From Nitrospira sp. (GTDB lineage: Bacteria; Nitrospirota; Nitrospiria; Nitrospirales; Nitrospiraceae), in the NCBI GenBank assembly GCA_005116965.1, contig SWDG01000027.1, positions 192,100 through 227,727 on the forward strand: DNA of 35,628 nucleotides, read 5' to 3'. Under the pieces are notes generated by a model, which saw only the letters and a list, made by a program, of their open reading frames with translations, had not been told where the DNA came from and searched no databases. Of this stretch, positions 20,294-35,494 are shown in pieces. How positions within the stretch are numbered: position 1 is the stretch's first letter; every line of letters begins with the position of its first letter. The translations under genes and the position numbers were made by a program.

Positions 20294-21265
20294 ATGCCGA
20301 AGATCTTAGTAGCCGATGACAGTATCGCAGTTCGTAAGGTGGCTGAACGACTATTGACTGAGGCTGGATTCGGCGTCACGCTTGCAGCAAACGGAGAGGA
20401 AGCGCTGGCCTATTTAGCAAAGGAACGACCGGATGTTGTCGTGTCCGATGTCATCATGCCGGATAAGAGTGGGTATGAAGTGTGTGCATTTGTCCGTGGA
20501 CACGCAACCCTCGCCTCGACGCCCGTACTGCTCATTTCTGGGATCGTGAACCACGAAGTGACCAAACAGGCTGAATCTTGTCGCGCGGATGGAGTATTGA
20601 AGAAACCCTTTCAAGGTACTTCCCTCAAGGATCGAGTCCTTGAGCTAATAGCAAAACGACAGGACGCAGCGCCAGCCTCCGCCGGTGGGCCCATTTCTGC
20701 CCCCGTAGCAGCCGTTGGTGAACCGACGATGCAGATGGCAACGCAACCGCTACAGGGACTGCACCAGGAGGTCCACAAACCTACAGAGATTGAAGAACAG
20801 TTACGGGCGGAACGGGCTCGCTCAGAAGAACTCGCCAAACGGCTGTCCGAGTCCTCGGAACACCTTGCCAGGGCCAAGACTAGTGAAGTGCAGTTGGCAG
20901 CCGAGCGCGCACGTCTCAACGAGCTTCAGGAGACACTCGCCAAGGTCGAGCAACAAGTATCAAGAATTCCCGAGCTAGAAGCAGCACTGAAAGCGGAACA
21001 GGCTCGCTCCGAAGAACTCACCAAACGGCTGTCCGAGTCCTCGGAACAGCTTGCCAGGGCTTGGTCGACTTGGTCTTCATCTTGGTCGACTTGGTCTTCA
21101 TCTTGGTCGACTTGGCTGCTTTCGACTTGCTGGCAGCAGCCACAGGCTTGGGCAATGCAGGCTTGGACTCCGTTTTCGACTCAGCGAGCCGTTGCTGGAC
21201 ATAGGCCGCCACGGTACCAACGGTACTCAAACCCGGAAGGTCTTGGTCTGGAATTTGGAGCTTGA
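20294..21265 (+). CDS. Response regulator with coiled-coil extension; C-terminal 68 residues are antisense of the acyl carrier gene
   Basis: Residues 1-120 form a receiver domain: Asp8-Asp9, phospho-acceptor Asp52 in VVSDVIMPDKSGYE, Ser82 and Lys104 (LKKPF). A Pro/Ala-rich linker follows, then a charged coiled coil (about 165-255) with a repeated unit RSEELAKRLSESSE. At 21060 the coding character stops abruptly. The remaining frame gives a Trp/Ser-rich tail (WSTWSSSWSTW and onwards) that is simply the complement of the acyl carrier gene on the other strand. The true 3' end is therefore missing, through deletion or misassembly. The intact protein probably had a longer coiled coil or an output domain. 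Confidence 0.8.
   Translation: MPKILVADDSIAVRKVAERLLTEAGFGVTLAANGEEALAYLAKERPDVVVSDVIMPDKSGYEVCAFVRGHATLASTPVLLISGIVNHEVTKQAESCRADGVLKKPFQGTSLKDRVLELIAKRQDAAPASAGGPISAPVAAVGEPTMQMATQPLQGLHQEVHKPTEIEEQLRAERARSEELAKRLSESSEHLARAKTSEVQLAAERARLNELQETLAKVEQQVSRIPELEAALKAEQARSEELTKRLSESSEQLARAWSTWSSSWSTWSSSWSTWLLSTCWQQPQAWAMQAWTPFSTQRAVAGHRPPRYQRYSNPEGLGLEFGA
20807..20874 (+). repeat. 68-bp direct repeat, copy A (coiled-coil unit)
   Basis: This segment and 20993-21060 are the same length and differ at only four bases by my count. They encode the heptad-like unit AERARSEELAKRLSESSEHLARA and its sister copy in the response regulator coiled coil. The recent-looking duplication implies the natural gene may carry more copies. 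Confidence 0.85.
20993..21060 (+). repeat. 68-bp direct repeat, copy B, ending at the abnormal junction
   Basis: This is the second copy of the coiled-coil unit. It ends with CTTGCCAGGGC exactly where sequence belonging to the convergent acyl carrier gene begins. After copy A the coding sequence continues normally (AAGACTAGTGAAGTGCAG), while after copy B it does not. Confidence 0.85.
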
Positions 21266-21431
21266 ATCGTTCCTCGATCTCGAACAGCAGTTCGATGATC
21301 GCTACCGAGTCGAGGCCGAGGTCATCACGAAGATGATGAGCTTCAGTAATCGATGCAGGGTCTCGTTTGAGATAGCTGGCCAAGGCCTGAATGATTTTAG
21401 CGATAACCGCGGGATCGATCCGTTCAGTCAT
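21018..21431 (-). CDS. Acyl carrier protein with Lys-rich C-terminal tail; extreme end abnormal
   Basis: The first ~85 residues are a standard acyl carrier domain: LGLDSVAIIELLFEIEERF with Ser42 as the phosphopantetheine site. AAGGAG lies upstream of the ATG on the minus strand. Most acyl carrier proteins end near residue 80. Here a tail rich in Lys, Ser, Thr and Ala follows (KPALPKPVAAASKSKAAK, then KTKSTKM repeats), like histone H1 or AlgP-type tails. The last 13 residues (PWQAVPRTRTAVW) are antisense of the response regulator repeat, so the real end is not present. It lies 79 bases downstream of fabF on the same strand, and the two would work together in fatty acid or related acyl chain elongation. 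Confidence 0.85.
   Translation of the reverse strand: MTERIDPAVIAKIIQALASYLKRDPASITEAHHLRDDLGLDSVAIIELLFEIEERFKLQIPDQDLPGLSTVGTVAAYVQQRLAESKTESKPALPKPVAAASKSKAAKSTKMKTKSTKMKTKSTKPWQAVPRTRTAVW
21061..21117. repeat. 21-bp tandem repeat, about 2.7 copies
   Basis: Two full units (21061-21081 and 21082-21102) and 15 bases of a third read TTGGTCGACTTGGTCTTCAT on the plus strand, plus one base. On the minus strand they encode the heptapeptide KTKSTKM in the Lys-rich tail of the acyl carrier protein. There is no spacer, so this is a coding minisatellite, not a CRISPR. Confidence 0.85.
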
Positions 21432-33784: not shown

Positions 33785-35494
33785 ATGAAGATCAGGGAAA
33801 TTGTTGTTCATAATTTTCGAGCCTTCAAAGATGCAACTCTATATGTGGAAGATTACGGCCTTCTCATTGGCGCAAACAATGCGGGGAAAAGTGCGGTTTT
33901 GGATGCTGTGCGAGCATTCTATGAGAAAGATATCAAGTTTGACGTCCAGCGAGACTTTCCAAAGTTTCCTACTGATGACAAAGAGTCCTGGATTGAGATC
34001 GAATATGAGATGACAAAGGATGAAGCAGAAACGATCCGTATCGAGTATCGACAAGCTGGTGGGCGGTTTCGCGTGCGAAGGGTCTTACACAGCGCGGACA
34101 AAGCTAACTTGCATCTCTATGCATACGAAGGCGGTGTCTTGTCAGCGAACCAGTTTTATGGAGAGGATAGTGTTGGAAAGGGGAAGCTTGGAGAGGTCGT
34201 CCACATCCCTGCGGTGACGAAACTTGAAGATATGACCAAATTTAGCGGGACGAGCCCGTTGCGAGACTTGGTCAATGCGATTTTCAAAAAACTGGTTAAA
34301 GGGAGCGAAGCATTTGCGAATTTTCAGTCTGCGGTCAATAAATTCGGGAAGGATATCCAAGCCGAGGAAACCTCTGACAAAAGGTCGCTACGTGGGCTGG
34401 AAGAGGATATAAACTCTGGCCTTAATGACTGGGAGGCGAAGTTTAAGCTGAGAGTAAGCCCGCTTTCCGAGACAGAAGTGGTCAAGTCCCTTCTGGACTA
34501 TGAGATTTATGATGAGGTGCTGAAGGCAAACCAAAGTGCTTCAAGCTACGGACATGGCTTTCAACGTCAACTGATCTATCGTCTCCTCAGAGTGTCAGCA
34601 GGTTACTCAGCCGGAAAATCACCGGCAAAGAAGAAAGACTTTTCTCCAGACTTTGTTCTGTTGCTGTTTGAAGAGCCAGAAGCGTTTTTGCATCCCCCTC
34701 AACAATCCCAACTGGACAGTGACTTGCGAAAGATTGCGATGGAGGAAGGGCGCCAGGTTCTTCTGTCGACTCATTCTCCCCAGTTCGTAAGCCATGCAAC
34801 CGAACATATACCAGGAATCGCCATGCTTCAGCGATGCAATGGGCAGAGTGTTATTGGCCAAATCAAGGTTGAGAGATTAAGCGAGCTCTTCGCCGAGAAT
34901 CAGGAAGTCAACAAGTTAGCAGCGGGATTAAAAAACTACGAAGCCGGATCCGATGAAAGTAAAATAGAAATGGAAGCGGTGAAGTATTTTCTGTGGTTGA
35001 ACCCCGAGCGGTGCGGAGTATTTTTTGCAAAGAGGACACTTGTAGTGGAGGGCCCTTCAGAGGTCGTGCTAATTAACTACCTCATTCACACAGGAAACAT
35101 TCGGACTCCGACAGGGGGTCTATTCGTCATAGATGCTTTGGGTAAATGTAATGTCCACCGATTCATGAATTTGCTTGGGGAACTCAAGATCGAGCATTCA
35201 GTGTTGCACGATCAAGATCCCAATAAGACCGGTGACGATAAGATATTCCATGAGAGGATGAACAAGCTGATTCAGGACAGCAAAAACATGTTCACTCAGA
35301 AGGTACATGTATTTGATGATGACCTGGAAGCCTTTCTGGGTGTCACTATGCCAGACAAGGAATATAGGAAACCCAGTCGTCTCTTGCTTGCTTTGAAAGA
35401 GTCACGGATCGATGGAGACCGAATTAAAGCATTATGCGAGCTAATTGAGAAATTGACAGGGGCATCAGTGGGCGCACCCGTTGCAATGAGTTAA
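33785..35494 (+). CDS. OLD-family ATP-dependent nuclease (AAA ATPase + TOPRIM)
   Basis: The 569-aa protein has an ABC/SMC-like ATPase with Walker A GANNAGKSAVLD (Lys35) and Walker B LLLFEEPEAFLHP (Glu296/Glu297), followed by QVLLSTHSPQFVS. A C-terminal TOPRIM domain follows, with LVVEGPSEVV (Glu422) and HDQDPN (Asp476, Asp478). OLD enzymes are nucleases tied to phage defence. AGAGGGA lies upstream of ATG 33785; the ATG four bases earlier is in another frame. Coding sequence looks more A/T-rich than the cob operon, hinting at transfer. It follows an hsdS scrap. No UvrD-like helicase follows within the window, so a Gabija pair is not shown. The last residues and the 134 bases after it show no other clear gene. 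Confidence 0.9.
   Translation: MKIREIVVHNFRAFKDATLYVEDYGLLIGANNAGKSAVLDAVRAFYEKDIKFDVQRDFPKFPTDDKESWIEIEYEMTKDEAETIRIEYRQAGGRFRVRRVLHSADKANLHLYAYEGGVLSANQFYGEDSVGKGKLGEVVHIPAVTKLEDMTKFSGTSPLRDLVNAIFKKLVKGSEAFANFQSAVNKFGKDIQAEETSDKRSLRGLEEDINSGLNDWEAKFKLRVSPLSETEVVKSLLDYEIYDEVLKANQSASSYGHGFQRQLIYRLLRVSAGYSAGKSPAKKKDFSPDFVLLLFEEPEAFLHPPQQSQLDSDLRKIAMEEGRQVLLSTHSPQFVSHATEHIPGIAMLQRCNGQSVIGQIKVERLSELFAENQEVNKLAAGLKNYEAGSDESKIEMEAVKYFLWLNPERCGVFFAKRTLVVEGPSEVVLINYLIHTGNIRTPTGGLFVIDALGKCNVHRFMNLLGELKIEHSVLHDQDPNKTGDDKIFHERMNKLIQDSKNMFTQKVHVFDDDLEAFLGVTMPDKEYRKPSRLLLALKESRIDGDRIKALCELIEKLTGASVGAPVAMS

Follow-up and report, generated by a model that had tools for sequence, protein, structure and literature searches.

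The window analysed here is a 35,628-nucleotide stretch of a 27-contig Nitrospira assembly (G000:C12:192100-227727; positions without a C12 prefix are those of the window). It contains a plus-strand open reading frame for a response regulator (RR) and a minus-strand frame for an acyl carrier protein (ACP), which overlap tail to tail and meet at 21060/21061. The features referred to below are as follows.

20294-21265, plus: RR open reading frame, 323 amino acids
20294-21060, plus: 5′ part of the RR gene, receiver domain and coiled coil (Pfam Response_reg, E 1.7e-22), residues 1-255 of the 460-amino-acid relatives
20807-20874, plus: first copy of a 68-bp direct repeat, within a 186-bp (62-amino-acid) coiled-coil unit
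20993-21060, plus: second copy of the 68-bp repeat; genuine RR sequence ends at its last base, and DNA matches from other genomes stop at 21060
21018-21431, minus: ACP open reading frame, 137 amino acids
21061-21431, minus: ACP gene lacking ~34 codons at its 3′ end (PP-binding, PF00550, E 4.8e-14)
21060-21115, minus: 21-bp tandem array (KSTKMKT units), 2.7 copies, where the ACP piece is cut
21061-21265, plus: RR frame left open by chance in ACP antisense, no true protein end; the RR of relatives continues differently
21018-21060, minus: ACP frame left open by chance in RR antisense; the ACP of relatives ends in KKKVATR and a stop, or similar
21060/21061 (C12:213159/213160), no strand: blunt join of the RR and ACP pieces, almost certainly a misjoin; DNA across it occurs in 0 of 78 further Nitrospira genomes, and kilobases lie between the two sides in all relatives
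23938/23939, no strand: a further blunt join within this piece, with ~910 bp missing and lptF reduced to its first ~62 codons
35628, no strand: right edge of the window; a 100-N gap begins directly after it, with the RR 3′ half beyond

These coordinates agree with the strand switch described in the original prediction, in which RR on the plus strand was set against ACP on the minus strand. Each frame had also been said to run some 40-200 nt into the antisense of the other without a stop of its own, and the measured extents beyond 21060 are indeed 205 nt for RR and 43 nt for ACP. Both frames end at chance stops within the other gene's antisense, and neither gene has an intact end at 21060/21061. 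Since antisense frames of such lengths are ordinary among the genes of this window (open for at least 205 nt in 13% and for at least 42 nt in 65%), the overlap is unremarkable read-through.

The 68-bp repeat and the 21-bp tandem repeat reported to flank the point do occur, and touch each other at 21060. The two 68-bp copies are 94% identical and form a portion of a genuine 186-bp (62-amino-acid) coiled-coil repeat in RR. This unit is variable in copy number, such that the protein has 398 or 460 residues among the closest relatives, a difference of exactly one 62-amino-acid unit. In the 21-bp array, a single unit is part of the ordinary ACP tail and the surplus copies adjoin the cut; the nearest relative, G071, has one KSTKMKT-type unit at this position, followed by diverged sequence.

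The normal arrangement of the locus is apparent from relatives, closed genomes included, in which the order is RR(+), an HPt-like gene, an ExeA-like ATPase, an HD-domain gene, a small gene, lpxD(-), ACP(-) and fabF(-); the names HPt-like, ExeA-like and HD come from reading the sequences rather than from a family search. In close relatives the stretch from the HPt-like gene to lpxD occupies the ~5 kb between RR and ACP, both of which are intact, and this answers the question of what separates the two genes there. The RR protein served to retrieve 80 Nitrospira loci, of which 55 have the full order RR+ hpt+ lpxD- acp- fabF- and none contradicts it; the remainder are incomplete, many interrupted by contig ends, but compatible, so that all 80 agree with the normal order. 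A 360-bp query spanning the join was found in none of the 78 other genomes of the genus, and in close relatives its matches end at query base 160 (window position 21060) and resume at base 180 or beyond. A conserved RR/ACP overlap was looked for in the relatives and found in none. In one close relative, CG24B, a 100-N gap lies exactly at the expected place of lpxD and ACP (L081:13318-13417), and gene-absence calls for these two genes in that genome would likewise be artefacts.

What should follow each of the two cuts is found at other places of this scaffold. The 3′ half of RR lies at C12:227828, directly past the right-hand 100-N gap, where the coiled coil resumes (LQETLAKIEQRVSRIPELEAALKLEQ...) and is followed by the HPt-like, ExeA-like ATPase and HD-domain genes. 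When aligned to the 460-amino-acid protein of two relatives (L078 and L080), the two RR pieces cover residues 1-255 and 273-460, leaving only 17 amino acids (51 bp) absent between them. The ACP tail (SPSTKKATSAKSV...KKKVTAR and stop; in full, SPSTKKATSAKSVMASKSKKISSGKSVKKKVTAR and stop) is found at C12:186400-186518. It adjoins lpxD, its neighbour in relatives, but is bluntly joined to tyrS, and together with lpxD it makes up a block at C12:184772-186518, left of the window.

Other assemblies are also broken in the same RR gene, one of them (L088) with a 100-N gap inside it. In G071 (L176:11357-11463; G071:C31:174356-174462), RR breaks off after residue ~58, and ~105 bp of unrelated filler stand in place of the rest ahead of the HPt-like gene, apparently a further misassembly of this repeat-rich gene. 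As for ACP, the copies beside lpxD and fabF in Nitrospira (window 21061-21431; L078-L157) carry a long basic C-terminal tail (median ~62 amino acids, 25% Lys, <2% acidic). The tail resembles one of the histone-H1 type, here on a carrier protein, and this ACP may serve as a dedicated carrier for lipid A.

The window is bounded on each side by exactly 100 N (C12:192000-192099 and 227728-227827), and all nine N runs in the inspected 240 kb of C12 have this length. Comparison with relatives divides the region into blocks, of which E holds lpxD and the ACP tail, C the RR 5′ part, F the ACP 5′ part, fabF and beyond, and D the RR 3′ half, the HPt-like gene and beyond. The order in this assembly is A-N-E-B-N-C-F-N-D-G. 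One relative (G007) has A-B-C-D-E-F, as do G062 and the closed genome G023 over the portion of their sequence compared; C-D-E-F also occurs in closed N. moscoviensis (L126) and others, and the nearest relative, G071, has C-D-E-F-G at 95-98.5% identity. All the scrambled blocks retain their orientation. Close to the right edge, at 33785-35494, the window encodes a 569-amino-acid ATP-binding protein resembling OLD-family nucleases. The gene, possibly an accessory or defence gene, sits in ~3 kb of sequence that matched nothing in the close relatives used for comparison.

The joins of this scaffold also break other genes. The sole tyrS of the assembly is split, with amino acids 1-39 in block A, amino acids ~141-419 in block B and block E between them; the region (C12:184557-187273, left of the window) contains a 100-N gap and the misplaced 1.75-kb block with lpxD and the ACP tail, and ~345 bp of the gene are missing. 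Because a cell without TyrRS is not viable, at least the tyrS scrambling must be an artefact, and the RR/ACP join is a member of the same set of joins. At the second blunt join in the window, 23938/23939, the ~910 bp are missing relative to all close relatives examined, which keep lptF, and this is probably another assembly loss. Protein searches, matching the remaining parts, found both tyrS and lptF in the assembly as partial genes only, and a DNA search of the same genome for the missing pieces, run without a positive control, found nothing.

The junction at 21060/21061 is almost certainly a misassembly. Four things shown by the sequences point this way: how the blocks are ordered here compared with relatives, gene halves that complement each other, the gaps of N, and a join that is seen nowhere else. 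What a misjoin predicts was found: the broken ends lie elsewhere in the assembly as complementary pieces (RR residues 273-460 and the ACP tail), other scaffold joins break essential single-copy genes (tyrS split, lptF cut to ~62 codons), and close relatives and other assemblies lack the join (0/78, with 80/80 loci compatible). On this sequence evidence, the apparent feature at the RR/ACP collision is an assembly artefact and holds no new biology.

In the real chromosome, RR(+) and ACP(-) would both be intact and ~5 kb apart. The cuts would have fallen inside the 186-bp coiled-coil repeat of RR and inside the Lys-rich 21-bp tandem repeat of ACP, and the RR 5′ piece would then have been joined directly to the ACP 5′ piece, while the displaced RR 3′ half and the lpxD-ACP-tail block stayed in the same scaffold, each adjoining a 100-N gap. 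Short-read assemblers break at repeats, and we infer that the contigs broke here on account of the repeats and that chimeric contigs E+B, C+F and D+G were afterwards put into the order of relatives by a reference-guided scaffolder, a combination that would give exactly the observed order. Nitrospira MAGs from rapid sand filters have been scaffolded with MeDuSa (PMC8751384), and the close relative G072 also has a 100-N gap. The original prediction of an assembler joining two repetitive ends is supported in this part; its further suggestion that the intervening DNA had collapsed is not, as that DNA is displaced within the same scaffold (C12:227828; C12:184772-186518).

Two observations stand against a misassembly. 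At these blunt joins the two sides share no more than 1-2 bp, so repeat collapse alone leaves the choice of joined ends unexplained; and short repeats, looked for at three other breakpoint regions, were found at none of them. The repeats at 21060 probably mark contig break sites, but they account for the two ends at this point and not for every join.

The strongest rival is a real rearrangement in the lineage, by illegitimate recombination, as originally proposed, or by deletion, that fused the genes tail to tail and truncated both. In its favour, direct repeats lie on both sides of the point, and by itself the RR-to-ACP join resembles a ~5.5-kb deletion. However, the supposedly deleted DNA is present elsewhere in C12 as complementary gene halves, the joins are blunt, the displaced blocks border 100-N gaps and no relative has the join. 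The shuffle also leaves the only tyrS split and ~345 bp short, which in our view makes a real rearrangement very unlikely. A local reshuffling real in this strain, with RR 5′ fused to ACP antisense and essential functions supplied from unassembled copies, seems to us just as improbable. Still harder to credit is a mixture in which several co-occurring Nitrospira strains were assembled into one sequence and one of those strains carries a deletion or rearrangement at this locus. With nearly all its relatives being MAGs, the genome probably derives from a metagenome, and sand-filter Nitrospira populations show microdiversity (PMC8751384); nevertheless, such a mixture still requires a strain in which RR and ACP are both broken, seen in no other assembly, and leaves the tyrS break unexplained. 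Finally, genuine convergent genes with a functional long antisense 3′ overlap, for which both frames being open across the point might speak, can be put aside as refuted by the relatives, none of which has the overlap and in which the HPt-like gene, lpxD and others separate RR and ACP in 55 of 80 loci, its length being ordinary for antisense frames in the window besides.

The misassembly matters only as a caution for annotation and comparative surveys. Pipelines would call a 323-amino-acid RR with a Trp-rich tail, a 137-amino-acid ACP, a truncated LptF and an apparent lack of an intact TyrRS, all of which stem from assembly joins, and the stretch is unfit for surveys of synteny or gene fusion.

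In its features the region is like the chimeric contigs and misordered scaffolds known from MAGs, and nothing sets it apart from them: gene halves are displaced within the scaffold, the gaps are exactly 100 N, the breaks lie inside repeats and the joins are absent from every relative. Every gene of the conserved Nitrospira locus occurs in this assembly too, and DNA identity to the closest relatives is mostly 88-98%, but here the blocks are scrambled and RR, ACP, tyrS and lptF are cut at the joins.
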